IMG/VR virus record: IMGVR_UViG_3300045886_000064
Coordinates: 1 to 28,962 of that record
Reading direction: 5' to 3' (one strand)
Length of the DNA: 28,962 nucleotides
Source: a virus
In this document: positions 1 to 15,524 of the stretch, piece after piece
How positions within the stretch are numbered: position 1 is the first letter of the stretch
How the letters are laid out: every line of letters starts with the position of its first letter
Position numbers and translations under genes: made by a program
Notes under the pieces: model-generated
The model's database searches: none
Told to the model about the DNA's origin: nothing
What the model saw: the letters and a program-made list of their open reading frames with translations, nothing else

Positions 1-325
1 CCTGGATCGGCACGACGTTTTCCCCGATGATGCCGCTGAACGTCAAGGCGGTACTGTTAAACGTGGCGGTCACAGTCGCGGGTGAGTTATGCACGCCAGG
101 CGCCAGCAGCGGAAATACAAAGAGCACGCCAGGCGGATCTTTCTTCAGCCAGCGCCACTCTTCGCGCATGCCGGGCACCAGCTCCCCGCCCCCCGCTGCA
201 ATGCCGAGGTACGCACGGTTGAGGTAGGACAGCACCGTGGCCTGATACTGACTGGTGCCATCCGTGGGTTCCCCAGCCCGAAAGAGCACATCAGTGATCA
301 GGTCGGCGGTAAATTGAAGATTCAA
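1..325 (-). CDS. Partial adaptor-like (head-tail connector) protein, 5' part only
   Basis: The first 108 codons of a minus-strand gene leave the window at base 1. The only usable start is TTG at 325: an in-frame TGA lies just upstream, and a GGAG ribosome site ends eight bases before it. The product begins (M)NLQFTADLITDVLFRAGEP and continues with a helix containing YLNRAYLGIAAGGGEL and then EEWRWLKKDP. A short helical N-terminus that counts nucleic-acid-end partners, followed by beta-rich sequence, resembles the small phage adaptor proteins that sit under the portal in podoviruses. It lies 26 bases after the beta-helix gene in the same late operon. The adaptor call is inferred from this look and the position; the coding frame itself is well supported. 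Confidence 0.55.
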   Translation of the reverse strand, partial: MNLQFTADLITDVLFRAGEPTDGTSQYQATVLSYLNRAYLGIAAGGGELVPGMREEWRWLKKDPPGVLFVFPLLAPGVHNSPATVTATFNSTALTFSGIIGENVVPIQ

Positions 326-351: not shown

Positions 352-3300
352 CTAATACCCCCCTGGCAAGCAGCCCGCGCTCATGATATTGAGCCGGCTA
401 TGCACATCCTGAGGGCTGTTGGTCACCGTATTGAGATCGGCGCTCGTGACCAGGGTGGTGGCGCTGAACGTGGGATTTGTCCCGCTCACGGTTGCCCCCG
501 CGGCCCCGAGCCATTTGCCGCTATTACCCGTGTCCCACAACTTTGCTGTTGTCTTGGTGCCATTCTGGTACAGGTAGAGCACTTCCGCGCCCACATCTTG
601 CCCGTTCAGCCCTGTACCTTTTAGTGTGGTGGCAGTCGTCGGCACCCACACCCGACAGTTCCCCATGGGATTTGAGCCAGTAATTTCGTTGGTGATATTG
701 GCATGCGTCGCGGCTGGCGTAAAGGTGCCACCCGTGGAGCCCATCACGGCGACATAATTGGCGCCCCAATCTTCGAGGTTCACTTCGTCGGTATAGAAGC
801 CCCATACCGTAGGCGCAATCGAGAGCACATTCTGCAAGAACATCGACCGTGGGGCGGTGCCAGGTGTACTAAGGGAGCTGGCATAAATATACCCACGCTG
901 GCTACCAAACACGGTGCATTGCTCGCAGCGCGTGTTCCGTCCAGCTCGCATATAGAAGCCATACGTGCTTGGGCTCACAATCAAATGGTCACGGTAGAGC
1001 ATATCTACGGTTTGGCCGCCACCAGACTTACCCTGGGCCAGTGCGCCAAAAATGCCGCCCATAACAATGTTGCCATAGAATTGATTATTCGTGCTGGTGC
1101 TCGATGGCTCTGGCGAAAACCCATGGCCGCTATCTTCGCTGATGTTGCTTTCGGTAATCCCGCCACTACCAGGATATTCCCGAGCGCACAAGTCGCCTTG
1201 TGACACAGTGCCAGAAGGAAATCCCCCAGTCGCATCCATATACCCACGACTATTGCAGTAATTCAGACGGGCAATCGTGCGGCTGCCGTACTTGGTCACG
1301 AGGCCATAGCGGTGAAAGTAGTAAAATTCATTCTCGATGAATTGATTGTCATGCGACGCCGTTGTGGTTGAATCGCCGTTTTGGAACAGTGACATATTGC
1401 CAAAGCGATTGCTGTGGTGTGCCAGATTCCGGTAGAAGCGCAAATTATGGGAGCTGCGGATTTCCACGGTACTAAAGCCTTCACCGCTCCCGTCGTTGTC
1501 CCGCGAGCTAAAGCGAAGCCCATTGATATGCCAGTAATTGCAACTGGTAATCCGCAAAGCAGGCGTCAAGCCGTTGGTTTTGAGCCAGGCTAGGCGTTCA
1601 TTGTCCGCTTGTAAGGTAATAGGAGCACTGGCGGTCCCATTCAGCGCATTGCCACCACTGGCACAATTCAGATTGACAAAGTTGCTGCCGGTAATATTGT
1701 ACGTGCCGTCTTGCAGAATCCAGGTTTCGCCAGGACTGGGACGGGGTTCGCTGGTGCTCATCAGTCGAGATAAGGCACACGGCGACCCACTGCTACAGGT
1801 CGACCCACTGCCCCCCGTTGAGACATAAAACGCACTGGCCGCACTGGTGGTTTGATCACCCACGGCACCAGTCGTTGAAAGACCGACACCATTCACCGCA
1901 TAGACCGCGGCTTCGTAAGCCGTACCCGCACTCAAGCCCGTTACGGTGGCACTGCATGATCCACCAGCCATCGTGCCCTGGACGCTTGGGTCCGTGCCAA
2001 ACGTGACCGCGTTATCATTGGTCAAGTCGTACACCACATGACAGGCACTGATGCCCGTTTGGGCATCTGAGGCTGTCGCGGTGACGGTAAAACTCGTCTG
2101 GGTGACATTGCTAAACGCGACACTGCCGACACTGGGCGCGGTGTTATCCACCGGTGCGGCAGGTAACGCAGGCCCCGCCTCGCAGACGCCCCATTGCGCC
2201 ACATCGGTGGGGCTGCTGGTCAGATTAAACGCCTGCTTATACTTCATCGTGCCGCCCGTCACCCGCTCTTGCTGGCGAAAATCACACAGCCATTGGCTCC
2301 CTGTGGCTATGGCGACAGGACTATCAAAGCATGCCTGCATGCGGCGTCGATCACCCGAGGTGGATTGCGAGAGTGCCAGATTCGCCAGGTCTGCGGTGGT
2401 GCTGAACACGCCGCTAGGCCAGGTGGCATCGTACTTATCCGCCTGTGGGCTGATGCCTAGTAACCAGGTATTCTCATCTTTCACTCGATCCAGGCTCGTC
2501 ATGCGGAGATAGGCAAATACCGCCTGGTAATTGGCGATCGCCGTGTCATCTTCGGCCACGTCGACCCAAGATTGATTCGCAAGGGTTTCTTCCCCCCGCA
2601 CACAGATGCGATCTGGTGTGCCATTCTTCCACACCGCGGCAATGAGCATATCCGCTGCGGGTGTCGTGCTATGCCCGGCCTTGGCCACAATGCTGGCCCG
2701 GTCCCATTGAGCGTCATCAATTGTCGGCTCATCCACCACCTCATATAGGGCATAATTGACTGTCACCCCAGCATCGCCCCCAGGCGATACCGGATTGGCG
2801 TTAGCATCGGTGGAGCAGTACCAGCTATCGAGCATCACTGATGGCTGAGTCAGGACATAGAGATCATTCCCACTCGTAAACGCGAAGTCTCGTTGCGCGG
2901 TGTCGTTAATCGGGACGGATGAGCCTTCATTCACCCGCTGCAGGTTTTCATCGGCACGACTGCCAATGCGCGTCCAGGTCCAGTCCGCCGCCACACCACC
3001 GTTGAAGAGAATGCTTGCCGCCGTATTACTGGGCACTGGGCCAAACGGGGTCTTGCTCAGCCAGGCAATGCCCGTTCCTTTAGCACGGAGCCAGAGATAA
3101 TTGCAGGTGGTGTCAATTTCCATGGCAAGCTGGGTCTGAAAGTCCCGCGTGCCGGAGAGCATCCCGAGATAATCACCACCATCGGCCGTGGTATCGACCA
3201 CCGAAGCCCAGCTCCCAGGATCAAACACCGCATCTTCTGCGGCGGCGCAGCGATGGGACGTATCACAGACGGCCCACACGTCAACCGGTGTCGGCACATA

Positions 3301-3369
3301 GCGCCATTTCGCGGCATGGCTCATGGTCGGCATGAGGAGCAGTAAGATCCAGGCGATCAGGTAGGCCAT
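352..3369 (-). CDS. Exported FN3 plus right-handed beta-helix protein (tail-spike or surface-polysaccharide enzyme candidate)
   Basis: This 1005-residue product is the largest in the window. It starts at ATG 3369 behind a strong GGAGGGGAG site. Residues 1-19 look like a Sec signal peptide: a hydrophobic run LIAWILLLLMP, then SHA before the likely cut. Residues about 20-400 are a beta-rich domain I do not recognise. Residues about 405-510 resemble a fibronectin type III module (TAPSVGSVAFSNVTQTSFTV onward). Residues about 513-900 open with FYVSTGGSGS and carry the N- and G-rich rungs of a pectate-lyase-like parallel beta-helix (for example HINGLRFSSRDNDGSGEG). The mature chain has about 20 cysteines, which fits an oxidising location. 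Phage beta-helix proteins are often spikes that cut surface glycans, but virion proteins rarely carry signal peptides, so a secreted or periplasmic role is equally possible. It is the last of four signal-peptide genes in a row. Confidence 0.8.
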   Translation of the reverse strand: MAYLIAWILLLLMPTMSHAAKWRYVPTPVDVWAVCDTSHRCAAAEDAVFDPGSWASVVDTTADGGDYLGMLSGTRDFQTQLAMEIDTTCNYLWLRAKGTGIAWLSKTPFGPVPSNTAASILFNGGVAADWTWTRIGSRADENLQRVNEGSSVPINDTAQRDFAFTSGNDLYVLTQPSVMLDSWYCSTDANANPVSPGGDAGVTVNYALYEVVDEPTIDDAQWDRASIVAKAGHSTTPAADMLIAAVWKNGTPDRICVRGEETLANQSWVDVAEDDTAIANYQAVFAYLRMTSLDRVKDENTWLLGISPQADKYDATWPSGVFSTTADLANLALSQSTSGDRRRMQACFDSPVAIATGSQWLCDFRQQERVTGGTMKYKQAFNLTSSPTDVAQWGVCEAGPALPAAPVDNTAPSVGSVAFSNVTQTSFTVTATASDAQTGISACHVVYDLTNDNAVTFGTDPSVQGTMAGGSCSATVTGLSAGTAYEAAVYAVNGVGLSTTGAVGDQTTSAASAFYVSTGGSGSTCSSGSPCALSRLMSTSEPRPSPGETWILQDGTYNITGSNFVNLNCASGGNALNGTASAPITLQADNERLAWLKTNGLTPALRITSCNYWHINGLRFSSRDNDGSGEGFSTVEIRSSHNLRFYRNLAHHSNRFGNMSLFQNGDSTTTASHDNQFIENEFYYFHRYGLVTKYGSRTIARLNYCNSRGYMDATGGFPSGTVSQGDLCAREYPGSGGITESNISEDSGHGFSPEPSSTSTNNQFYGNIVMGGIFGALAQGKSGGGQTVDMLYRDHLIVSPSTYGFYMRAGRNTRCEQCTVFGSQRGYIYASSLSTPGTAPRSMFLQNVLSIAPTVWGFYTDEVNLEDWGANYVAVMGSTGGTFTPAATHANITNEITGSNPMGNCRVWVPTTATTLKGTGLNGQDVGAEVLYLYQNGTKTTAKLWDTGNSGKWLGAAGATVSGTNPTFSATTLVTSADLNTVTNSPQDVHSRLNIMSAGCLPGGY

Positions 3370-3372
3370 GTT

Positions 3373-4116
3373 CTACTCCCCTCCCACGACGATACGCACG
3401 CTTTGCCCGACGGCCGCTTTGACCGACACACCAACATGGTCCATTTGATACGTCGTGGCATCCCAGGAATAGTCCATCCCTACGCTCGCGGCACCCGTTT
3501 TCGTGCTCGCAATACAGGTGATGTTATTACTGGCTGTGCCGTCAGTGGTTACGCTCAACCATTCTTCGACCTGTGGACTATCCGCGGTCGGTGTGTCGCC
3601 ACTGGAGCCCCGGGACAGATTGGAAATCACCAGCTCCCCCGTCGCACTGCCCACACTGATGGCTGCGGAGTTCGCATTAAAGCCCTGCGTGATCGGCGTC
3701 CCAAAGGGGTTGCCCAGGTTGACGCCTTGGAGGGTGATGCACCCAATGGCCCAGCGATGGTTTCCGCCCGTGCCTTCGACGGTATTGCTCCCCGTGGTCG
3801 GATTGGCGAGATACCAGATTTCGCTGCCGTTACTACCGCCACCATCGCCGCCTTCGTTTTGTGCCAGCTTCGACAGGCCCACGGAGTTGTAGGTAATGCT
3901 CGTGACATCGGTCAGGCCACGCCGGCAGACACCGCAGATGAGCAGCCGATTACTCCCCGTTGCGCCTGAGTCATGCGCAAAGCTGACCGTGGTACTTTGT
4001 ACCGCCCCGGTGTTGCCGGCATTCGACGTGCCCACTTCACTGGGGGCCGCGGCAACGGCCAGCGTGGCCCAGAGGACCATCGCGCACAGGATGAGGACCG
4101 ATTTAATTGATCTCAT
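3373..4116 (-). CDS. Exported beta-sandwich-like protein of unknown function
   Basis: I place the start at ATG 4116 because it opens a textbook signal peptide: MRSIKSVLILCAMVLW, then LAVAAAP with an AVA cut site. The 247-residue product overlaps the previous gene by 14 bases. The mature part is rich in Gly, Ser, Thr and Asn and has an alternating beta pattern: SNRLLICGVCRRG, then a SEIWYLANPTTGSNTV segment, ending in DHVGVSVKAA. The same layout (a GNLLVL-type strand, a SEIYLHSF-type strand, a closing TGVASFKAA) appears in the 14787-15524 protein, so the two may be remote paralogues. The mature region has four Cys. No enzyme motif is visible. It could be a virion accessory or a secreted carbohydrate-binding protein. 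Confidence 0.75.
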   Translation of the reverse strand: MRSIKSVLILCAMVLWATLAVAAAPSEVGTSNAGNTGAVQSTTVSFAHDSGATGSNRLLICGVCRRGLTDVTSITYNSVGLSKLAQNEGGDGGGSNGSEIWYLANPTTGSNTVEGTGGNHRWAIGCITLQGVNLGNPFGTPITQGFNANSAAISVGSATGELVISNLSRGSSGDTPTADSPQVEEWLSVTTDGTASNNITCIASTKTGAASVGMDYSWDATTYQMDHVGVSVKAAVGQSVRIVVGGE

Positions 4117-4897
4117 AGTCAATACCGATCGTGCATGTTTTGCCTGCGGTCGGCGTATTCGTGGTATCCAGCAACAGAGACTCACCTGCCACAAAGACAT
4201 TAGCCGCGGTGATCGCCTTGGGAGCATAGGTGGCGCTTTCGGAGGTGCAGGTCGGATTCGTATCGGTAATGGTCAGGGCATTGCCAGCCCCATCTTTCAG
4301 CGTAAAGGTCGGCAGGGTGCCCGTGACATCACTACACCGACACCAGATCGCAGTCACCGTCGAGGCATGGCGGAAATGACCGAAGGGTGTGTTATCATGC
4401 GTTGCCGCGACGTCGATAATGGTGATATAGCGCTCTTTCAATGCCGGTGACACGGTGATGGTGCTTCCACTCGCGGCGGTACTCAGCCCCTTCGCCCCTA
4501 TAACGCTGATATTTGTTGGCCCTGATGCCACGACAGATCCGGTATTGCCATCGATCTGCATGATGGCGTCGTCATTTTCGCCAATCAGATGCCAGTTTTG
4601 CCCAACGCCATAGCAAATATAGGTATCGCCCAGCGTCGTCGTATCACGATAGATGGCCTTCTCGTGTGGGCACGAGCCAGACGACGGAGCCCCTGCCCCA
4701 TTCAGCAAAAAGCTTCCCGTCACGACCTCGGGATTGAGCAGCTCGCCATTTTCGTCCAGGCCCGCCGCCCCGCCAGGCGTGCCAATGGTGACATCTCCCC
4801 CGGTGCTGGGCGGGACATATTGCACCTGGCCCCACAGTGGCAGGCTCGCCAGGGCCAGGATGGCCAGGAGGGCGCTGAGCAGCGCCAGACGACGCAT
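4103..4897 (-). CDS. Exported hypothetical protein with signal peptide
   Basis: The product has 264 residues from ATG 4897, which overlaps the upstream stop as TGATG and has GGGGAG six bases ahead. MRRLALLSALLAILALASLP followed by LWGQ is a clear Sec signal peptide. The mature part begins with a Pro/Gly-rich linker (QYVPPSTGGD) and then resembles phage tail-fibre segments: NPEVVTGSFLLNGAGAP, a YRDTTTLGDTYICYG strand, and a VSPALKERYITI strand. Six Cys, including WCRC, could form three disulfides. I do not recognise the family. Its position between two other signal-peptide genes suggests one exported or surface complex. Confidence 0.75.
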   Translation of the reverse strand: MRRLALLSALLAILALASLPLWGQVQYVPPSTGGDVTIGTPGGAAGLDENGELLNPEVVTGSFLLNGAGAPSSGSCPHEKAIYRDTTTLGDTYICYGVGQNWHLIGENDDAIMQIDGNTGSVVASGPTNISVIGAKGLSTAASGSTITVSPALKERYITIIDVAATHDNTPFGHFRHASTVTAIWCRCSDVTGTLPTFTLKDGAGNALTITDTNPTCTSESATYAPKAITAANVFVAGESLLLDTTNTPTAGKTCTIGIDYEIN

Positions 4898-5328
4898 CAG
4901 CGACTCCCCCCATGGCCTTCGAGATACGCATTGATCGTCCCACTGGTGTACGCCGTGATGCGCACCTTGACCCAGCGCACGTTGATGGTCATCATGACCA
5001 CCTGGTCCGTGGTAATGTCGGTCGCGTTGAGCTTGATGCCGTGGGTATTATCGGCGGGCTTCGTGGTGGCGTTGCTCCCGTCGATCTCCACCGTGGCCGT
5101 GGTAATCCCCGCGACATGCACGCTCATCGTCTTGAGCCCAGAGGCGTCAATCCACTCCCCGTCTGTCGTGGCCACAGCAGAGGTGAGCATCTGGGCGCGG
5201 AGGACTGTGGTCCCATTGACGCTGATCGTCGTGGTGGCGATCGCCCCGAAGGCAGCCAGCGGCCACCACAGCACCAGCGCCAGGAGCGTGATCAGGAGCC
5301 TATCCACGGCGCGGGCGCCCATGTCCAT
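4897..5328 (-). CDS. Small exported hypothetical protein with signal peptide
   Basis: The product has 143 residues from ATG 5328. ATG 5322 and GTG 5307 are alternatives, and all three give the same hydrophobic leader DRLLITLLALVLWWPLAAFG ending near FGA. The GTG choice would give the neatest signal peptide and sits at the upstream gene's stop; no start has a good ribosome site. The mature part (TTTISVNGTTVLRAQML onward) is a Thr/Val-rich beta protein without Cys and ends in an AYLEGHGGSR tail. It is the first of the four consecutive signal-peptide genes and couples to the next by a TGATG overlap. Function unknown. Confidence 0.7.
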   Translation of the reverse strand: MDMGARAVDRLLITLLALVLWWPLAAFGAIATTTISVNGTTVLRAQMLTSAVATTDGEWIDASGLKTMSVHVAGITTATVEIDGSNATTKPADNTHGIKLNATDITTDQVVMMTINVRWVKVRITAYTSGTINAYLEGHGGSR

Positions 5329-5590
5329 CGGTGGGATTCTGCCACCCCACGGCATGCAGACTGGCCGGCGAACACTTGCGCAGCTCTTCGTCGAACCAAT
5401 CAGGGAGTTCGTCTTTTGCGATCTCATCGCCCCCCTCGCCATACACCGCCCCCCCCTGCAGCCAGACCGGCGCGGCATCAGCCCCGCACAGGCGCATGGC
5501 GTAGCGCGTGGCGACAAGTTTATTGATCGGAATGCCGCCCTCTTCGACGGCGGCAAACTCGGTGATTTTGGTTAAGGTGAATGCTGGCAT
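5300..5590 (-). CDS. Hypothetical late protein
   Basis: The product has 96 residues from ATG 5590, with AAAGGAG about ten bases upstream. It is acidic and has no signal peptide. It holds PAFTLTKITEF near the start, then a GGAVYGEGGDEIAKDELPDWFDEEL segment, and ends in a basic Gly/Pro/Arg-rich tail. It sits between the capsid-adjacent genes and the exported block, so it may be a small virion or assembly protein. I see no motif that identifies it. Confidence 0.65.
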   Translation of the reverse strand: MPAFTLTKITEFAAVEEGGIPINKLVATRYAMRLCGADAAPVWLQGGAVYGEGGDEIAKDELPDWFDEELRKCSPASLHAVGWQNPTDGHGRPRRG

Positions 5591-5619: not shown

Positions 5620-5976
5620 TTATACGCCTTCGGCTACCCAGTCGAGCGTGATGGCTGCTGGCGCTTCGGATGTATCGCACTCCAAAAGCGGGCCTCCGGC
5701 CGCGGTGCCTTCCTCTTCGTAGGCCAGGAGTTTGTGAGCGCTCTTGTTGTAGGCGAACATATAGCTCACGGTGCGGGCGTTGTTGCCGTACACCACGAGC
5801 GAATCAATAAAGCTGTTAAAGCCAAAGCTGGTGATCGCCGGGAGCGGGATCCCGGCCGTGGGATACGTCGGCCCCCCGCCCGCAATCGCCATGGTCCCGT
5901 AGTGCCGTTTGGTCTTGCCGAGCTTCAGGCGCTTGGTCACGGTGACCGTCACATCGCCGGCTACATAGGCTGCCAT
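5620..5976 (-). CDS. Capsid-adjacent virion protein (conserved phage hypothetical)
   Basis: The start at ATG 5976 is chosen because GGGAGGG lies about eight bases before it. The 118-residue product opens MAAYVAGDVTVTVTKR and continues with a TYPTAGIPLP segment and FGFNSFIDSLVVYG. From memory, this pattern is common in small proteins next to the capsid gene in phages with N4-gp56-like capsids. It is beta-rich and probably a virion component. The exact role, whether head decoration or completion, cannot be read from the sequence. Confidence 0.75.
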   Translation of the reverse strand: MAAYVAGDVTVTVTKRLKLGKTKRHYGTMAIAGGGPTYPTAGIPLPAITSFGFNSFIDSLVVYGNNARTVSYMFAYNKSAHKLLAYEEEGTAAGGPLLECDTSEAPAAITLDWVAEGV

Positions 5977-5989
5977 GTCGTGCCCTCCC

Positions 5990-6415
5990 TTAGGCTGTGG
6001 CCACCATGGCACTCATGTTGGCGGGCTCCTCGGGAATGACCTCCACGAGGAACACGATATCTGCCAGATCGCCGGCTCCTGTGACGTCGGTCACCTGGCA
6101 GACGGCCTCGGTGCCAGGTTCCATGATCACCGGAGGATTGCAGCGCTGATACAGGACCGCGCCCGCCGCCAACCCGCTGGGGATGGTGAGCGAGGCAATA
6201 TCGCCATCGCCGCGCCCGGTATCGCTCTTGAACGTCACCCGCTTATCGACCTTCAGCACCCCCGCTGCCGCGGCGGCGTTGTGATTCAGCAAGGCCACCG
6301 CATGGATGGCATGCTTGCGAAAGCCCGGCGCCCAGGTGCCGCCTGTGACGTCGGCGGCACTGTTCAGGTCGGCGCCCTTCACCACCATGACTTCGTAGGT
6401 GTTATCCGGCCCCAT
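5990..6415 (-). CDS. Putative capsid decoration or head accessory protein
   Basis: The product has 141 residues from ATG 6415, directly downstream of the capsid gene in transcription order. AAGGGG and GAG purine runs precede the start. The sequence is beta-rich and Ala/Val-rich: RKHAIHAVALLNHNAAAAAG, then SLTIPSGLAAGAVLYQRC, then a strand with EAVCQVTDV. This position is where head decoration or stabilising proteins usually lie. The assignment rests on that position and the fold type rather than on a diagnostic motif. Confidence 0.65.
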   Translation of the reverse strand: MGPDNTYEVMVVKGADLNSAADVTGGTWAPGFRKHAIHAVALLNHNAAAAAGVLKVDKRVTFKSDTGRGDGDIASLTIPSGLAAGAVLYQRCNPPVIMEPGTEAVCQVTDVTGAGDLADIVFLVEVIPEEPANMSAMVATA

Positions 6416-6433: not shown

Positions 6434-7384
6434 TTATAAGCTGCCCACATGGATAAGATTGGCTTCGCCAGCGTTCGCCGAATCTTCCCACGGCATGCGC
6501 ACAGCGATTTGCCCATACCACGCCACCGAGTTGAACCGGCCCGCTGCGCCCCGTGGAGGGCTGGCGTACAGCTCAGGCGTGCGGCCCTCGATCATAGCCA
6601 GGGCATTGGCGCCAAAGCACACGCCTTCCCCGAGCACAGATCCGGTGCCGACTTTTCCCAATGCGGCCGCATGGTTGGTGCGGACAAAACGGAGGTTGTC
6701 GATCTTGCCGACTTCGCCCTGATATTTGGCCTGTGGATCGGTGTACTGATGCCAGATTTCCCAGTCCGGGTCATTCATGATGCCGCGCAGCGCCAGTTGT
6801 CGGAAAATGCCCAGATACCCGCCCCCGTCGACCTCTTCCATGTGGTAGGTGTCATACATGAGGTCGACCAGTGCGGAGGCATGGTAGACGTTCATGTTGG
6901 CGGTGGATGCCGCGCCAAAGGTGCCGTTGGTGGTAAAGTTACTCGTGGCGGCCCCGGTGATGGCATACTTGAGCTTGCCGAGCTTGGCGGCCGCAGCCGC
7001 AATGGTATCGATCGCCAGGGTCATCTGCTGGCGCAGCTTGCGCCGGATGCCCTGTTCGAGCCCGATCATGCTCATGTCGCGGCTGAACCCCGTAAACGGC
7101 ACCTGGCGCCCGATTTCCCGCAGCGTCAAGGCAATGGTGCTCATCGAGAAGGCATCTTCGGGGATGTCCTGGGTTTCCGACAAGTAGACGCTGGTCGGCT
7201 CGGCCAGGTTACTGATGCGCGGGATGGTGAGCGATTCCCCGCGCCGGGTACCGAAGCCAGGCGTCATGTCGATATGTTCGACAAAGACGCTGTCGGCCAT
7301 GGCGGCGTCAAGAATCTGGCTGGACACTTCATGGCTTTTATACGTGCCCGAGGGGGCGTCAAATTCCCATGTAAAGTTCGGCAT
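6434..7384 (-). CDS. Major capsid protein, N4-gp56-like
   Basis: The product has 316 residues from ATG 7384, with GGAGAGAGG upstream. Its features fit the N4-gp56 family of HK97-fold capsid proteins: an N-terminal SQILDAAMADSVFVEHIDMT segment, the IPRISNLAEPTSVYLSE strand, the RQVPFTGFSRDMSM and LRQQMTLAIDTIAAAAA helical spine, and a late KIDNLRFVRTNHAA segment followed by FGANALAMIEGRTPELY. Length and order are normal for the family. It follows the scaffold-like gene by 15 bases, the usual order in phage head operons. It should be the most abundant virion protein. No protease gene is visible nearby. Confidence 0.88.
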   Translation of the reverse strand: MPNFTWEFDAPSGTYKSHEVSSQILDAAMADSVFVEHIDMTPGFGTRRGESLTIPRISNLAEPTSVYLSETQDIPEDAFSMSTIALTLREIGRQVPFTGFSRDMSMIGLEQGIRRKLRQQMTLAIDTIAAAAAKLGKLKYAITGAATSNFTTNGTFGAASTANMNVYHASALVDLMYDTYHMEEVDGGGYLGIFRQLALRGIMNDPDWEIWHQYTDPQAKYQGEVGKIDNLRFVRTNHAAALGKVGTGSVLGEGVCFGANALAMIEGRTPELYASPPRGAAGRFNSVAWYGQIAVRMPWEDSANAGEANLIHVGSL

Positions 7385-8328: not shown

Positions 8329-8532
8329 TTACTCAACCTCTTCGATTGTCTCCGCTTGAAAAACCAGCTCGAGGACGCCATCTTTCGGCACCCCCAGCCT
8401 CCGGGTCATCACGCCAATCTCCATCAATATGTACGCCTCAGGAATGCCCAGCGCCGCAATCAGGGCGGCGGGGGTAATCTCTTCCCGGAGCACCCGCACT
8501 ACCTTGGCTTGTCGCTGGCGTGGTTCATCCAT
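8329..8532 (-). CDS. Small acidic hypothetical protein
   Basis: The product has 67 residues from ATG 8532, which overlaps the upstream gene by eight bases. The sequence is helical: RQRQAKVVRVLREEITPAAL, then ALGIPEAYILMEIGVMTRR, ending in an acidic ETIEEVE. It belongs to the chain of small overlapping genes between portal and scaffold. No family recognised. Confidence 0.65.
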   Translation of the reverse strand: MDEPRQRQAKVVRVLREEITPAALIAALGIPEAYILMEIGVMTRRLGVPKDGVLELVFQAETIEEVE

Positions 8533-8713
8533 GGGTCACCCGATAGTGTTCTTTGACCTCAAAGCTCTGGATCTCGCCCCGATTCAAGTTGAGCAACACT
8601 TGCCCGGTGATGCCGCGCATCAGACTTTCCACAATGCACTTTTTCACCTGGGAGGAGAGATGTTCCGCCAGGTATTCATCCAACGTCCGCCCGAGCGTGG
8701 CCAGTGTGGTCAT
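8525..8713 (-). CDS. Small hypothetical protein
   Basis: The product has 62 residues. ATG 8713 overlaps the upstream stop as ATGA, which fixes this start over longer in-frame options. It is mostly helical, with TLDEYLAEHLSSQVKKCIVE, then LMRGITGQVLLNLNRGEIQS and an FEVKEHYRVTHG end. Function unknown; likely translated by coupling with its neighbours. Confidence 0.65.
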   Translation of the reverse strand: MTTLATLGRTLDEYLAEHLSSQVKKCIVESLMRGITGQVLLNLNRGEIQSFEVKEHYRVTHG

Positions 8714-8967
8714 CCTTGCCTCGCTTGTTGTTGATCGTCCTTCCCGAGCCGAATCAGCCGGCCGAGTTCTTTGCTCACGGTGTCCACCGCCACCAGCGTG
8801 GCCACAAGGGTGAGCGCCATCTCCAGCGTCAAACTGTTGGTCCGAAATGCGGCCATGAGCGCCTGCACCGCCGCGTCGGATTGCTTGGTCAGGTGCGGCC
8901 GGATCCGCGCCATGAGATATTCCGCCGCCTGCCCCTCCGCAATGTAGTCTCGATCCAGGTCGACCAT
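8710..8967 (-). CDS. Small helical hypothetical protein
   Basis: The product has 85 residues from ATG 8967, joined to the upstream gene by a TAATG overlap. A hydrophobic helix, SLTLEMALTLVATLVAVDTV, lies in the middle and could be amphipathic or membrane-associated. The C-terminus is charged (KDDQQQARQG). I do not recognise it. A holin-like role is conceivable from the single hydrophobic stretch, but nothing else supports that. Confidence 0.62.
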   Translation of the reverse strand: MVDLDRDYIAEGQAAEYLMARIRPHLTKQSDAAVQALMAAFRTNSLTLEMALTLVATLVAVDTVSKELGRLIRLGKDDQQQARQG

Positions 8968-9188
8968 TACAGCTCCACCTTAAGCCCCGCGGCCGTATAG
9001 AGCGTATGGCTCCGACCTTCCGCCTTGCGCAAGTCCTCAATGATGGCGGCCTGGATGGCAATAACATTGCGCAGCGCGGTGATCAGAAACTCCCACCGCT
9101 TGTTGGGATCTTCGACGCCATGCCGCCCGTAGTTGTTGTTCCACCACACGGCCAGGTCATCATACTTTTGCTCGGTCGCTTTGCTCAT
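8967..9188 (-). CDS. Small hypothetical protein
   Basis: The product has 73 residues from ATG 9188, with GGAG about 12 bases upstream. It begins MSKATEQKYDDLAVWWNNNY and is followed by a long helix (KRWEFLITALRNVIAIQAAI). No Cys pairs and no known motif. It is part of the compact late operon. Confidence 0.65.
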   Translation of the reverse strand: MSKATEQKYDDLAVWWNNNYGRHGVEDPNKRWEFLITALRNVIAIQAAIIEDLRKAEGRSHTLYTAAGLKVEL

Positions 9189-9194
9189 AGACTA

Positions 9195-9410
9195 CTAAAT
9201 CTCCGTGTAGTGGATCCCTTCGCCGCCGTGGGCGCTGATCTTCGCCACATACGAACAGCGCAGGCAACGATAGACGTTTTCGTGGGCGGTGGACGAAATG
9301 CAAATCAAATGGGCTTCCCCGTTGAACACGCAATCGGTGGCCGCCTCATGAATCACCCGGTCAAACTGCCAGCGCTCTTGCTGGCTGAGGGCACGCAACA
9401 CGTCAAGCAT
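9195..9410 (-). CDS. Small Cys/His protein, possible zinc binder
   Basis: The start at ATG 9410 is chosen because GGAGGG lies about six bases before it; it overlaps the upstream stop by eight bases. The 71-residue product has an N-terminal helix (LDVLRALSQQERWQF), then a part with Cys and His spaced like a divergent ribbon: DCVFNGEAHLIC, then YRCLRCSYVAK. It is one of several tiny Cys-pair proteins around the portal gene. Function unknown. Confidence 0.6.
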   Translation of the reverse strand: MLDVLRALSQQERWQFDRVIHEAATDCVFNGEAHLICISSTAHENVYRCLRCSYVAKISAHGGEGIHYTEI

Positions 9411-9693
9411 TGAGTCGCCCTCCGGTCGCATCAACGGGGCTCACGACACGCAACCCATGTCTACCCATATAGCTCAGCGCGTCGTCGCGGTCAGAGGAAA
9501 ACATCCAGTGCCGTGCGCCTCGCAATTTCTCCGCGAGATGGTCCTGACAGTGGGCGCAGCGGACATCGAACCACTCGGGATCCTCGCTGGCCCGAGTCAC
9601 AAGGCCATCCGAGCTACTGATCACCACGACGCCTTGGCGTGGGTCATCCGACAACAACTCGCAATGTCCACACTGGCACATAGGTATGCCCAC
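9403..9693 (-). CDS. Small Cys-rich hypothetical protein (zinc-ribbon-like)
   Basis: The product has 96 residues from GTG 9693, which overlaps the portal stop as TAGTG and has AGGAGG six bases before it, the best ribosome site in the neighbourhood. Cys pairs sit at MCQCGHC near the start and RCAHC in the middle, enough to hold one zinc. The C-terminal half (WMFSSDRDDALSYMGRHGLR) looks helical. Position right after the portal suggests a head-assembly or accessory role; no family recognised. Confidence 0.65.
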   Translation of the reverse strand: MGIPMCQCGHCELLSDDPRQGVVVISSSDGLVTRASEDPEWFDVRCAHCQDHLAEKLRGARHWMFSSDRDDALSYMGRHGLRVVSPVDATGGRLNA

Positions 9694-11633
9694 TAATAGC
9701 CTCCTCCGGTGGGTAGGCGTTCCGCGGGCAGGTTGCCAGGCACCCCAGCCGGTGCAGGCATCACGCCTTGTGGTTGCCCCTGTCCGCCCTGCATCTGAGC
9801 CATCATTTGCAAATTCTGCTGCATCTGGGCTTGCTCCTGGGCGTCGGGCTCCAGGGTGCTGGGGTCCAGGTTGACCGACTTGAAGAGATGATTCCAGATT
9901 TTACTCGGGCTGTAGCGCTGCCAGAACGTGAGCCCCATCATAGGATTTTTACTGGCCAGCTCTAAGATCGCCATGAGCTTCTGGAAGTCACGCACCCTGG
10001 CGACAATGGCACTCAGGCCCGTGACCTTGAATTGACACCCTGCCAGCTCGGCAAAGCGTTCCGCGGGGCTGAGACTGGCCAGGCGTAACGCGGCCTCTTG
10101 CCCGATCGCCGCGACCATGGCCTCTTCATCGAATTCATCCAGGTATTGCATGGTATTCGACCAGGTGAGGTGCAGGGCCTTGCTGATCGCCTTTTCCGCA
10201 TCTTTGATCATCCCGTCAAAGAAGTTGGCGCTCTGGGCGGAGGCTTCCACCACGGCGGTGGCGGTGGTATCGCCGCCAGGCGTCTGGCCGAGGCGCACGG
10301 CATTGACCTGCGTGGCGATTTGAAACTCCTGATCGGTGAGCTGAAACGCCGTCAACGATTCGGGAGGCACCTTCCCTGTGACGACCGTTTCGACGACCTT
10401 GACGCCCGCGGGCGTGCCTTCTTTCATGACCAGTGTGTCACCGGGGGCAATCCCATCTTTCACCTGCCGTGGATCGTCCAGGAATTCTGGGTAGAGCTGC
10501 TTGACGCCCCAGACGCTGCTAATCCCCCCGTCCAGGATGAGGTTGTACAGCTCATTTTGGGCCAGGTTCAACGCGACCGCATGGTCAAAGAGCGCCTTAT
10601 GCCAGACGCTGAACGGAATGCGCAGGAGAGGCCGGCTGACAAAGGGGCGCTCGCCATGCCAGTAGGGATTTGGTTCTGGCGGCCTGATCAGATATTTCCC
10701 ATTCGCCATGGTGCACACAATATTGCGCTCGGTGTAGCGTCCGCGCTCATCGAGCAGATCGCCCCAGCACTCCAGTAACACTACGCGCTTGCGAAAGCTG
10801 GGGGGCTCTTGACGTTGCTGGTCCCGCTGCTGCTCGTTGGTGCGGTAGGCCTCCTCTTCGTCCTGGGCAAAATCCTCGTCAATCTGCTGTACGATCGCCG
10901 GATCGTACACCCCGGCATCCGCCATCGCTTGCACGTCGGCCAGGTCGCGCTCGACTTCGTGCATCTCGTACAACCCACGCCCGGTGGGGTCAGGCAAGTA
11001 ATCCTCTGGCGCAACCAGGTCAATCACCGCTCGCCAATGGGACACTTCCCGCCGTACCAGGTTCGACACCATCTGGGCCACGATGGACCCATCAGGCATA
11101 GTCAGGTATTCATAGCCGCGTTCCGCCCGGAACACCTGCTTGGTGTCGTCGACCCCATGCACTTTGAACACCATGAGGCTGCCCAGGAGCGCCACCGTGA
11201 CGGCATCAGCCACCAACGCAGGAAAATCCTCATCGGCGTTGACGCCGTTGTTCGCGCTGTCATCGAGCACATACTGCAAGAGCTTGCGGGCCTGCTGATC
11301 GTTCAGGACGCGCTCACTGCGCAGATCGGTGGTGAACCAGTCGCCAAAGTCGGTCAGGCCGCGCTCGATAAAGGCGCCAATCTGCTCTTTGGCCATGGCC
11401 ACCTTGGGCAAGAATTCACGGCTCTGGCCCTTTTGTTTGTGGCTGAAATCCTGCTTGCCCATGAGCACATCCCAGTTGCGTTTCGTCAGGATGAGCCGTT
11501 CTTTGCGTGCTTCCTGGGCTTCCGTCTTGTACGCCTGCATCGCCATGAGCACCGTCAGACTGGCGCCCTGGACCACGGGGGCGTCGTTGGTCATCGGAGG
11601 TGCCTGGCGGCGTCGACGTCTTGCTTGAGCCAT
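9693..11633 (-). CDS. Portal protein
   Basis: The product has 646 residues from ATG 11633, tied to the upstream stop by a TAATG overlap; a longer in-frame start is less likely. The portal is the dodecameric ring through which DNA enters and leaves the head. Supporting features: a basic N-terminus, a long helical body beginning KTEAQEARKERLILTKRNWD, the wing segment LVRREVSHWRAVIDLVAPED followed by YLPDPTGRGLYEMHE, ERPFVSRPLLRIPFSVWHKA, the stem region LAQNELYNLILDGGISSVWG, and a Gln/Met/Gly-rich C-terminal tail. Length, order between terminase and scaffold, and these segments fit the large portals of podovirus-like phages. Confidence 0.85.
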   Translation of the reverse strand: MAQARRRRRQAPPMTNDAPVVQGASLTVLMAMQAYKTEAQEARKERLILTKRNWDVLMGKQDFSHKQKGQSREFLPKVAMAKEQIGAFIERGLTDFGDWFTTDLRSERVLNDQQARKLLQYVLDDSANNGVNADEDFPALVADAVTVALLGSLMVFKVHGVDDTKQVFRAERGYEYLTMPDGSIVAQMVSNLVRREVSHWRAVIDLVAPEDYLPDPTGRGLYEMHEVERDLADVQAMADAGVYDPAIVQQIDEDFAQDEEEAYRTNEQQRDQQRQEPPSFRKRVVLLECWGDLLDERGRYTERNIVCTMANGKYLIRPPEPNPYWHGERPFVSRPLLRIPFSVWHKALFDHAVALNLAQNELYNLILDGGISSVWGVKQLYPEFLDDPRQVKDGIAPGDTLVMKEGTPAGVKVVETVVTGKVPPESLTAFQLTDQEFQIATQVNAVRLGQTPGGDTTATAVVEASAQSANFFDGMIKDAEKAISKALHLTWSNTMQYLDEFDEEAMVAAIGQEAALRLASLSPAERFAELAGCQFKVTGLSAIVARVRDFQKLMAILELASKNPMMGLTFWQRYSPSKIWNHLFKSVNLDPSTLEPDAQEQAQMQQNLQMMAQMQGGQGQPQGVMPAPAGVPGNLPAERLPTGGGY

Positions 11634-11803
11634 TAGGCGTCTTCCCACCCCGCACGCGCGGGGTCTGTGATCCAGCCGTCGACGGGGTGTTGCGCCGGAC
11701 GACGATCGTCAACAAGCTCATGGGTGGCGTCAATGACCTGTTCGTCTGGCCGGCTCCGAAGGCGAATGCGTGTCGTCACCACATCACCCCCCCGTTCAAG
11801 CAT
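11633..11803 (-). CDS. Very small hypothetical protein upstream of portal
   Basis: A 56-residue frame runs from ATG 11803 to a TAA that shares bases with the portal start (TAATG). AGGAG lies about 12 bases before the start, and the upstream gene overlaps it by eight bases. The product is charged (TRIRLRSRPDEQVIDATHEL) and ends GWITDPARAGWEDA. The continuous overlap on both sides is the main evidence that it is translated. Function unknown. Confidence 0.55.
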   Translation of the reverse strand: MLERGGDVVTTRIRLRSRPDEQVIDATHELVDDRRPAQHPVDGWITDPARAGWEDA

Positions 11804-12026
11804 GCCCATACCGCGCTCCTGGAATCACGACCGGCTTCCGCTCGGCCTCATGCAAACATTCGCCACACAAGCCAATCGTCACGGTGGCCCCCTTGAGCCG
11901 CACGCCACAGGTACGGCAGCCGGCCTCCGGGTGATACGGCTCCACACGCACCATCACAGGGGGTGGCTCAGGCGCTGGGGCCCAGACCTTGACCTTTTTA
12001 GGTGCGGTCGTGCGTGTTCGAGGCAT
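11796..12026 (-). CDS. Small zinc-ribbon-like protein
   Basis: The product has 76 residues. ATG 12026 overlaps the upstream stop as TGATG, which fixes the start. A basic, Pro-rich N-terminus (PRTRTTAPKKVKVWAPAPEP) leads to two Cys pairs, CRTCG and CGEC, 18 residues apart, a typical zinc ribbon. It could bind nucleic acid or a protein partner. Confidence 0.65.
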   Translation of the reverse strand: MPRTRTTAPKKVKVWAPAPEPPPVMVRVEPYHPEAGCRTCGVRLKGATVTIGLCGECLHEAERKPVVIPGARYGHA

Positions 12027-12241
12027 CACGCCCCCCGGGGCAAGAGCGCGCTCAGGTCCACATGCACCCGGCGATGCCGGTTGCCACAGACCGTACAACG
12101 ATCGGTCGTAAAGGGCATGCGCGTCTCGATGCGTTCCAAGTTGAGCACGTCCTTGCAACACTCATTCACCCCCGCTACGTCCGGCGCGGGCTTCAGTGGG
12201 CCGGATTCAGCGTGAGGTGCCGACGCTCGCAGGTGTGACAT
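12026..12241 (-). CDS. Small zinc-ribbon-like protein
   Basis: The product has 71 residues from ATG 12241, with GGAG eight bases before it; it overlaps the preceding gene by 49 bases. Cys appear as NECC in the middle and CTVCG near the end, followed by a basic NRHRRVHVD stretch. It is the middle of three consecutive Cys-pair genes. Function unknown. Confidence 0.6.
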   Translation of the reverse strand: MSHLRASAPHAESGPLKPAPDVAGVNECCKDVLNLERIETRMPFTTDRCTVCGNRHRRVHVDLSALLPRGA

Positions 12242-12642
12242 TTGACGATCTCCATGCCATCATAATCCACCCGCAGATCCTCGCTCGCCGCACAGCACGC
12301 TGGCAGGTTCGCGAGCCGCTCTACGGATTTATTCCACAGGGCGGTGGCGTAGTGCTCATCTCGATCCCAACAGAAGGCCCCGCACGTCTCACAGCGCACT
12401 TCCCACACATCCGCCTGGAGTGCCGGCAAGATGCGCTGCTGAATCCGGTCGCGCTCTTTGGTATCTTCGGTGCGCGCAATCTCCGCCCGGAGCCTGGCTA
12501 CGCGATCGCCACTTGTCACAGGGCTGGCGCTCAACCCGCTCTGGAGCTCATCAAGGCGCCGTTGGTAGGCCTCCCGCACCACCTGGCGATGTGCGCTCGG
12601 CTGCGCGTGTGCTTCGCCCCCACAGGGGCATGGCAGTAACAT
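12193..12642 (-). CDS. Lar-like zinc-ribbon protein
   Basis: The product has 149 residues from ATG 12642. It begins LLPCPCGGEAH, has a long charged helix in the middle (VAYQRRLDEL-type and ARLRAEIARTEDTKERDR), then VRCETCGAFCWDRDEHYATA followed by LWN. The frame CPCGG, then CETCGA, then an acidic stretch and a final A-x-WN is that of Lar-type zinc ribbons, known for easing host type I restriction. The helical insertion is larger than usual, and a third pair CHTCE lies near the end. Possible anti-restriction role; this rests on pattern memory only. Confidence 0.55.
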   Translation of the reverse strand: MLLPCPCGGEAHAQPSAHRQVVREAYQRRLDELQSGLSASPVTSGDRVARLRAEIARTEDTKERDRIQQRILPALQADVWEVRCETCGAFCWDRDEHYATALWNKSVERLANLPACCAASEDLRVDYDGMEIVKCHTCERRHLTLNPAH

Positions 12643-12651
12643 AGGCGTCTC

Positions 12652-13074
12652 CTACGCAATCGTAAGTAGCGAAGCCCCAAAGTCAATTGTGAAGGTTTCT
12701 CCCGCGCCCACGAGGGTGATCTCTGAGCCATAGTCGAACCAGGCCATGAGCGGGTCTGATGCCGCCGTCTCATTGAAGATCACCACATAGCGAAACGGCC
12801 CGAATCCAGCCCCGGTCCCGGTGAACACAATATCCACGGCGGTCATCGTGCCAGTCCCGCTGGTTTCGGTGTAATCGTTCTGAATGTCGGCCTCGGCATA
12901 GCCATTCTGTTCGGTAATCCCGGCCAGGTCGGCCTTGACCGCATCGGCGCTGGCGCTCGGCGTGGCATTGCTGAGATACGCCTCGAAGGTATGCCCGGCT
13001 GCGTGAAGTTGATGGACACCCTTCCCGAGCTGCTCGACGAAATCTTGAAATTTGTTGTACGTCGCCGTCGCCAT
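12652..13074 (-). CDS. Conserved phage virion-type protein
   Basis: The product has 140 residues from ATG 13074. It begins ATATYNKFQDFVEQLGKGVH, contains a block of small residues (LSNATPSASADAVKADLAGI), then FGPFRYVVIFNETAASDPLM and WFDYGSEITLVGAGETFTID. I recognise this as a widespread small phage protein found among head and tail genes, beta-rich and usually annotated as hypothetical or structural. Exact virion location not known. Confidence 0.72.
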   Translation of the reverse strand: MATATYNKFQDFVEQLGKGVHQLHAAGHTFEAYLSNATPSASADAVKADLAGITEQNGYAEADIQNDYTETSGTGTMTAVDIVFTGTGAGFGPFRYVVIFNETAASDPLMAWFDYGSEITLVGAGETFTIDFGASLLTIA

Positions 13075-13077
13075 GTC

Positions 13078-14295
13078 CTATTTCCCTCGCTGCCACCAAG
13101 GACGCCCACGCCACCGGCGCCGCTCCGGTTCTGGTTCGCCCATCATTCCAAGCAGCCGCAACCGATGCAGACGCACGGCTGACCCTGATAAGCCCCCCTC
13201 CGGTGTTGCCTCCTCGGAATACACCAGCGTCACGGGTTGCCCCACGAGCACATAGGCGCCGGCGTCCGTCACGAGACGCCGCATGGCCAGGAGGTCGGCA
13301 TCGCTCCCCGTCAGGCTATACGCCCCCGCCTGGGCTTCCAGGATGCGGATCAGCTCCAGGATGATATCCTGTCCACTCAGGCTATATGCCCCCGCCTGGG
13401 CACTCAGCACGCGCCCTAGTTTCAGTGTCGTGCTCTGTCCCGTGAGCACATAACTCCCGGCTTGCGCGGCCAGGAGGCGTGTGAGTTCCAGTAGACCATC
13501 CTGCCCGGTCAGGCTGATGGCCCCTGCCTGTGCCCCCAGGAGGCGCGTCAGTCGCAGCCCGGCCGTTGCCCCGGTGAGGGCATACGCCCCGCTCTGAGCC
13601 TCTAGGACGATGCCGCCAGGGATGGCATAGGTCAGATTGACATCTTGCCCGGTGAGGCTATACACCCCCGACGCGAGCGTCAGGAGACGCGTCAGACGCA
13701 GGCTTGCATCGGTCCCGCTGAGGGCATAGCTCCCCGCCTGGATCTGCACGGGATAGCCACGTGCCAGGGACACGCTCTGACCGCTCAGGCTGTACGCCCC
13801 TGCTTGGGGCACCACCAACGCCGATCGCAAGAGCCCTACGGTCGCCCCGCTCAGACTGTAACTGCCTGCCTGGATCGCCGCTACGTGCCCATTCCGCAAC
13901 CCCACATCCTGCCCCGTCAGGGTGTACGCGCCCGCTTGCATCTGGAGAGGATAGCCGCGGGCGAGATTCGCCGTCTGGCCGGTCAGGCTATAACTGCCGG
14001 CTTGCGCTCCCAGGGTCCGCGTGGTCCGCAGCCCCACATCAGCCCCCACGAGGTTATAACTGCCAGCCTCTGGCACCAGCTCACGCCCATACTCCAGGGA
14101 GGTATCCTGGCCCCCGAGGCTATAGCTTCCGGCCTCTGGTGTGAGCACGCTCCCACGGCGCAGCGTCACGCTCTGCCCGGTGACGGCCACGCTCCCCGCC
14201 TCAAGGGTCAGCGTATACGCCTGGAGTCCCTTGGATGGCCTCCACCGCCGACCAGGGCGGCGTCGAACGGGCGTCCGGCGAAAGAGCGTGGGCAT
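13078..14295 (-). CDS. 22-residue tandem-repeat virion protein
   Basis: The product has 405 residues from ATG 14295, four bases from the neighbouring gene. A strongly basic N-terminus (FRRTPVRRRPGRRWRP) is followed at residues 33 to about 360 by 15 tandem repeats. Most are 22 residues with the pattern A-G-[SA]-Y-[ST]-L-[ST]-G-Q-D-x-x-L, then a variable strand; one copy is extended to 26. The C-terminus is Arg/Trp-rich (RRRWRGRPWWQRGK). The alternating pattern predicts a long beta-solenoid or fibrous rod. Basic ends could anchor it to DNA or to the capsid. Likely a fibre or surface decoration; no enzyme motif visible. Confidence 0.75.
   Translation of the reverse strand: MPTLFRRTPVRRRPGRRWRPSKGLQAYTLTLEAGSVAVTGQSVTLRRGSVLTPEAGSYSLGGQDTSLEYGRELVPEAGSYNLVGADVGLRTTRTLGAQAGSYSLTGQTANLARGYPLQMQAGAYTLTGQDVGLRNGHVAAIQAGSYSLSGATVGLLRSALVVPQAGAYSLSGQSVSLARGYPVQIQAGSYALSGTDASLRLTRLLTLASGVYSLTGQDVNLTYAIPGGIVLEAQSGAYALTGATAGLRLTRLLGAQAGAISLTGQDGLLELTRLLAAQAGSYVLTGQSTTLKLGRVLSAQAGAYSLSGQDIILELIRILEAQAGAYSLTGSDADLLAMRRLVTDAGAYVLVGQPVTLVYSEEATPEGGLSGSAVRLHRLRLLGMMGEPEPERRRWRGRPWWQRGK
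13216..14199 (-). repeat. 66-base tandem repeats inside the repeat-protein gene
   Basis: Fifteen imperfect 66-base units encode the 22-residue repeats. The repeated core (plus strand) is a variant of CAGGCTATA and GCCCCCGCCTG, the complement of the AGxYSLxG codons. Copies differ at many third positions, so the array is old enough to have diverged, while the protein pattern is kept. Confidence 0.85.
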
Positions 14296-14786: not shown

Positions 14787-15524
14787 CTACCTCCGCGCAA
14801 AGAAGCGATACGGCCGACGTCGTGCCGGCCTCGAGGTCGCTGCTGCGCTCGCGGCTTTAAAGCTCGCAACACCTGTGAACCATGTTCGAGGCGCAGCGCC
14901 AGTACCAGCGACTTTAGTACCATTACAGGTTACACTAGCCGTCGATGAGACAATTTTGTAGCCCAGATTATACGCTTGGCCGGTGCTATTTGATTCATTC
15001 TCAGCGGCTTGCGTAAACCCATCACCTGTGTCTGTCGCCATGGCATAGGTATCGCCTGTATGACTATGACTGAAAAAGATAATTTCATCAGCTTGGGATA
15101 GGGTGCCTGTGACAACGCTAGAGGTATAACCATTTTGATCAGTAAACGCCCCTGTATTGGTGACTGACACATCACGTTGACTGCTTGTGACTGCGCCGCT
15201 GACTTCGGTTAACGCCAGGTCAATATCTGCTGAAGTGCCAGGAGGATTACAAGTAACTTGTGTACTACCAGCACCGCAATTCGGAAAACTATGAAGATAA
15301 ATCTCGCTATCGGCGTCACCGTTGATAAAATATCCAGTAGTGCTATAGCTACTCCACGTACCATTGACCGGATCACTGATGGTCGGTTCGCCAGAGCCGC
15401 CACCGTTAAAAATAGCGCTATGCAGCACAAGCAAATTCCCTGCGCTGACAGTACGGGTTACGCTCGCGCTGTTAGCGCCACCCGCTCTGGTAGCTACAGT
15501 TGTGCCAACGACATCCTGTGCCAC
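14787..15524 (-). CDS. Beta-sandwich-like protein, possible paralogue of the exported 247-residue protein
   Basis: The product has 245 residues from GTG 15524, which overlaps the upstream stop as TAGTG; a GGTGAG site lies about five bases ahead. It lacks a signal peptide. Its strands (SAGNLLVLHSAIF, then SEIYLHSFPNCG, then ALTEVSGAV, closing in TGVASFKAA) follow the same order as the protein at 3373-4116. The C-terminal tail is basic (RPARRRPYRFFARR). Base composition is visibly less GC-rich than that of flanking genes, so it may have arrived recently. Probable virion or surface protein. Confidence 0.68.
   Translation of the reverse strand: MAQDVVGTTVATRAGGANSASVTRTVSAGNLLVLHSAIFNGGGSGEPTISDPVNGTWSSYSTTGYFINGDADSEIYLHSFPNCGAGSTQVTCNPPGTSADIDLALTEVSGAVTSSQRDVSVTNTGAFTDQNGYTSSVVTGTLSQADEIIFFSHSHTGDTYAMATDTGDGFTQAAENESNSTGQAYNLGYKIVSSTASVTCNGTKVAGTGAAPRTWFTGVASFKAASAAATSRPARRRPYRFFARR

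Follow-up and report, generated by a model that had tools for sequence, protein, structure and literature searches.

Four consecutive late genes of a tailed, portal-packaging phage encode proteins whose export by the Sec pathway is well supported by their sequences. The phage is represented by the window, i.e. the whole 28,962-base IMG/VR record IMGVR_UViG_3300045886_000064. We see about an even chance that the block supplies exported proteins of the spike, fibre or decoration type, which would fold after leaving the cytoplasm and be added to virions at lysis. All four open reading frames are present on the - strand (Table 1). The first-pass annotation had set the block between the capsid and adaptor genes: the adaptor gene does follow it, but three leaderless small genes separate it from the capsid gene. 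A helicase, a VapE-type primase and a DNA methylase are encoded on the + strand. Three contigs from other data sets (L002-L004) repeat the region at ~100% identity, and an assembly artefact is therefore unlikely. Scans of genome contigs with the capsid and portal profiles found no prophage. Between the portal and scaffold genes (8525-9693) there is a cluster of very small ORFs (62-96 aa), and similar small ORFs are found in the relative L005/G003.

Table 1. Features of the window around the leader-bearing block; the last row gives positions in the relative L087
Feature	Position	Strand	Description
Adaptor gene, 5' part	1..325	-	Profile match, L002 16060-17058, E 1.2e-120; start ~325, continues past base 1
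1005-aa leader protein	352..3369	-	Leader ~3313-3369, ...TMSHA/AKWRY (/, predicted cut); N-terminal region, fn3, probable right-handed beta-helix
247-aa leader protein	3373..4116	-	Leader ~4051-4116, ...LAVAA/APSEVG
264-aa leader protein	4103..4897	-	Leader ~4829-4897, ...LPLWG/QVQYVPP; fibre/cement-like beta C-terminal domain
136-aa leader protein, GTG start	4897..5307	-	Leader ~5245-5307; homologue of core gene between capsid and adaptor
96-aa core slot gene, leaderless	5300..5590	-	
118-aa core slot gene, leaderless	5620..5976	-	
141-aa core slot gene, leaderless	5990..6415	-	
Major capsid protein, HK97 type	6434..7384	-	phrog_1357 E 3e-12, PF05065 E 1.6e-5
Portal protein, SU10 type	9693..11648	-	PF23899 E 3.9e-11
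L087 retroelement	11730-14016		VR 12804-12919, TR 12983-13098, RT ~13435-14016

Leaders were called with our own rule-based scorer (not SignalP) together with conservation. The earlier claim that all four proteins begin with Sec-type leaders was borne out: each has the n/h/c build and an end of the A-x-A type or G-Q, with small residues before the cut. The scores were 5.6, 6.9, 6.8 and 4.8 (6.9 being that of the 264-aa protein), and lambda Lom, a known exported protein, scored 6.5. The leader of the 1005-aa protein is the weakest, with an n-region that carries no positive charge. Chance is a poor source for these leaders, since only three of 76 virion and late structural proteins from lambda, T7, P22, SU10 and BPP-1 reached 4.5 (T7 gp14, at 5.1, SU10_017 and Bbp22) and none of the three has the charged n-region typical of a leader.

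We also considered the choice of starts. The first gene of the block more likely begins at GTG 5307 than at 5328, judged from its overlap with the upstream stop and the resulting 136 aa, the exact length of the L005 counterpart; this better start retains the leader. Internal Met codons within the leaders of the 247- and 1005-aa proteins make mis-chosen starts possible there, yet in L005 a leader recurs at both places. Even numbers of mature Cys, reported earlier for three of the proteins, were also found (mature counts 0, 6, 4 and 20).

Such an exported block had been called unexpected, which is true against the model phages, but it is not unique to the phage of the window. In L005 and L006 (records G002 and G003, respectively), whose capsid protein is 62% identical to that of the window, the same four-gene block stands in the same place and all four proteins have leaders. 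Between the window and L005 the leader of the 136-aa protein is 43% identical and its mature part 82%; for the three comparisons made, leader identities were 43, 37 and 32% and mature identities 82, 47 and 37%, i.e. the leaders are conserved at or below the level of the mature parts. In the same comparison, the first 20 residues of the capsid, the portal and three other late proteins were 56-75% identical, against 61-76% for the remainder. Judged from these alignments, the leaders have diverged in sequence whilst their leader character is kept in L005. The third gene of the block has been exchanged altogether: the 247-aa protein of the window is replaced in L005 by a 342-aa protein that is non-homologous by BLASTP, and both have leaders.

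L005 shares all six Cys of the 264-aa protein, and in the 1005-aa protein 15 Cys line up with Cys of the L005 counterpart. Leader proteins here and in the relatives contain 1.48 Cys per 100 aa, compared with 0.64 in the window's other late genes, 0.40 in the G003 tail genes and 0.50 in the model-phage controls. Where leader proteins contain Cys, 14 counts are even and 4 odd, some of these proteins being homologues of each other.

The relative G003 also carries leaderless tail genes of the ordinary kind, including one for an internal protein with an SLT domain and, by reading, a leaderless fibre-like gene; the main particle would therefore be assembled in the usual way. A gene with a response regulator receiver domain (L018:8326-8979; PF00072, E 1.1e-9) adjoins the tail/lysis end of the late operon in G003. 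A tyrosine integrase is encoded at G002:27558-28001 and G003:39812-40255, and L005/L006 are therefore probably temperate. In the near-identical contigs from the window's phage, all of them fragments, no integrase turned up.

The 136-aa protein links the block to the core late genes. Aligned with 12 leaderless relatives, it gave an hhalign probability of 92% (E 6.3e-7), and an HMM built from leaderless members only recovered L005 (7.8e-8) and the window (2.8e-6) ahead of the next non-member (0.12). The family (106-132 aa) is common to ~24 relatives, in which it lies near the adaptor gene and is leaderless throughout. Its profile similarity and its place in the capsid-to-adaptor slot make the 136-aa protein a leader-bearing member of this core slot family, and most likely a core late gene gained a leader in the window's clade. 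The other three leader genes separate it from the adaptor gene. A PDB sequence search with the 136-aa family profile gave no matches.

For the other three proteins, the evidence comes from domains and folds. The 264-aa protein gave a weak AF2 model that is usable in the C-terminal domain only; the closest folds to this weak model are phage tail/fibre proteins and the Pam1 capsid protein 7eel_H (best PDB E 2e-3). The 1005-aa protein contains an fn3 domain (PF00041, E 2.1e-7), its L005 counterpart matches the PF13229 beta helix just below the curated cut-off (E 1e-5), and residues 508-1005 are similar to L014. The AF2 model of the 1005-aa protein (pLDDT 31) was of no use for the fold, and PDB sequence searches with the 1005-aa and 264-aa profiles gave chance matches only. 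Tests for homologues of the 247-aa protein gave no support for L007 5092-6045, the L005 third gene or window 14787-15524.

Capsid-profile scans recovered 100 distinct relatives, 51 of them with a complete capsid-to-adaptor slot. The slot ranges from ~1.0 kb with three small genes up to 6.3 kb. On the capsid tree, leaders in the slot account for about six changes, at least four of which are forced by strongly supported branches; this count used ten leader-positive rows from the scorer's list, with L057 excluded by hand as not leader-like. On this tree, leaders in the slot arose repeatedly. L094 carries four leader genes in a row. One of them, in this slot, encodes a polysaccharide lyase (PF14099, E 2.3e-23) that also matches F5/8 C weakly. 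L092 encodes a pectate-lyase-like protein, again a weak match (E 0.0044).

Leaders are also found on Mtd, which serves phage BPP-1 as its receptor-binding protein. L087, a distant capsid relative of the window, encodes an Mtd with a Sec leader (PF21916, E 2.5e-23; Mtd-U1 1yu4, E 3.4e-10; the tail protein family phrog_11262, E 4.2e-62), the sole match to the mtd_2nd Pfam family (PF21916) in the 60-kb record. A 116-nt repeat at the 3' end of this gene differs from a copy just downstream at 18 positions, all 18 at template adenines. As in BPP-1, where Mtd is served by a diversity-generating retroelement, L087 thus combines an Mtd homologue, VR, TR, RT and adenine-specific differences; from its sequence, this is a complete retroelement diversifying an exported receptor-binding protein. 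A second leader-bearing Mtd (L245:5704-8376) has a 57-nt template-like repeat (91%) and is followed by another leader gene, and no reverse transcriptase was found in the 43-kb L245 record. Unlike these two proteins, BPP-1 Mtd is leaderless by the scorer, as are most of the Mtd homologues found.

A comparable case is a fibre domain with the motif FLKQSTA..GPF, which starts at residues 1-4 in most phages, including the isolate Mvi-Yong1342-1, and follows a leader in four groups (L096, L098/L099, L104 and L171). In L099 (4598-7401), two leader genes lie within an apparent siphophage tail module, where the tape-measure and tail-tip genes were assigned by reading. Known virion-type families, i.e. 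Mtd and the fibre N-terminal domain, therefore carry leaders in both related and unrelated phages. As separate observations, the unrelated phages L014 (7947-15121) and L099 (4598-7401) each have a pair of leader genes, for a Cys-rich repeat/beta-helix-like protein and a fibre-domain protein (the 1517-aa protein of L014 has 35 Cys), and a 61-kb phage record has a run of leader and possible lipoprotein genes around the fibre-domain gene (L104:3375-12473).

A model consistent with these results is one in which assembly takes place in two compartments. The block would encode late-made spike, fibre or decoration-type proteins; the host Sec pathway would export all four and signal peptidase would trim their leaders; and folding would follow in the periplasm or beyond it, three of the four forming disulfides. 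Capsid, portal, adaptor and tail would be built in the cytoplasm as usual. At lysis the two pools would meet, and the exported proteins would dock on the particle as an outer adhesin/spike layer. Cleavage, disulfides, virion docking and timing are the parts that we infer. Amongst the options offered by the first-pass annotation, virion parts added outside the membrane is the best supported. Joining of the virion is argued from the core-gene ancestry of the 136-aa protein, the fibre N-terminal domain retained after a leader, the retroelement-diversified Mtd and the fold similarity of the 264-aa protein (from a weak model); diversification of Mtd would pay most if the protein reaches the particle. 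Addition at lysis is chemically possible, since there are fibres and spikes, such as T4 fibres and the P22 tailspike, that bind to particles in lysates. Some points count against the model. The leaderless tail and fibre-like genes of G003 mean that it may also have receptor-binding parts that are not exported, retroelement-variable exported proteins are known to occur on bacterial surfaces without phages, and docking after lysis would have to be efficient at low concentration.

The strongest rival, which we judge unlikely, is that the block encodes a free secreted set of adhesins and glycan-active enzymes, which would stay out of the virion and act around the infected cell or lysogen, on its capsule, matrix or envelope. 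The secreted glycan-degrading complex proposed earlier accordingly stays a live option. It would account for the fn3 domain and probable beta-helix of the 1005-aa protein and for the leader-bearing lyase, weakly similar to F5/8 C, that L094 encodes in the corresponding slot; the high and conserved Cys content of the leader proteins and the integrase of the probably temperate L005/L006 would also suit it. It leaves unexplained, however, why a core late gene that lies near the adaptor and elsewhere lacks a leader should have gained one, why leader-bearing fibres keep the N-terminal domain of leaderless phage fibres, and why a retroelement-diversified Mtd should be exported.

Retention at the host surface, anchored or periplasmic, where the proteins would keep sister phages from adsorbing or cover receptors on debris, is improbable in our assessment. 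Leader-bearing Mtd-like receptor binders could occupy receptors, and some known exported exclusion proteins also begin with leaders, but the four proteins show neither a lipobox nor a second membrane segment, and neither a multidomain protein of 1005 aa nor a core-gene homologue resembles the known small exclusion proteins. For the superinfection barrier suggested earlier we found no positive evidence, the match of the 136-aa protein to GP17 in Pfam (E 0.069) being sub-threshold. We give still less credence to the view that the hydrophobic N-termini stay uncut and dock the proteins on the virion within the cytoplasm. Some virion proteins made in the cytoplasm do have hydrophobic N-termini, T7 gp14 (score 5.1) among them; against this, the leaders in the block have the n/h/c build and cleavage-like ends, their sequence diverges whilst the build stays, in families that otherwise lack them leaders sit at the domain border, and they accompany high, conserved Cys.

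The usual assumption is that virions of tailed phages are assembled entirely in the cytoplasm. Sec leaders on phage virion proteins are familiar from the coat proteins of inoviruses, which assemble at the membrane without lysis; those phages are filamentous, unlike the tailed, portal-packaging phage here. The late cluster of SU10/Kuravirus has the same order of portal, scaffold, capsid, small gene(s) and then the gene after the slot, with an SU10-type portal. It differs in that only a 132-aa Ig-like gene lies between the capsid gene and the next gene, and in that its virion genes have no credible leader. The Ig-like protein (SU10 gp10) has no demonstrable homology to the 136-aa protein and was rejected as a relative of its family (hhalign probability 0.2%, E 0.38). 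A literature search that covered few subscription journals found no published account of Sec leaders on tailed-phage virion proteins.

Two bacterial systems bear a resemblance. The MAT fibres of Bdellovibrio are phage-fibre-like trimers with a signal peptide and adhesive tips that include an Mtd-like C-type lectin (PMC10769870). These are chromosomal predation genes of a bacterium, whereas ours lie in phage late operons, and the likeness is taken from their description. Treponema TvpA is likewise an exported or surface-displayed retroelement-variable protein, as is a Legionella lipoprotein cited in PMC4159848. The TvpA and Legionella proteins differ in being bacterial and partly lipoproteins, whereas the phage leaders here have no lipobox and the genes lie in a virion operon.

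We consider it possible, a little short of an even chance, that several unrelated tailed-phage lineages combine heads and tails made in the cytoplasm with disulfide-bonded exported adhesins, spikes or decorations that are joined to them at lysis, with at least one lineage diversifying such a protein by a retroelement. If this is true, some phages exploit the oxidising compartment to stabilise their fibres by disulfides, and part of virion assembly happens at or after lysis. Treating a signal peptide as the mark of a host gene or an auxiliary metabolic gene would then misfile virion proteins. The leader-bearing, retroelement-diversified Mtd sharpens the question and makes it testable.
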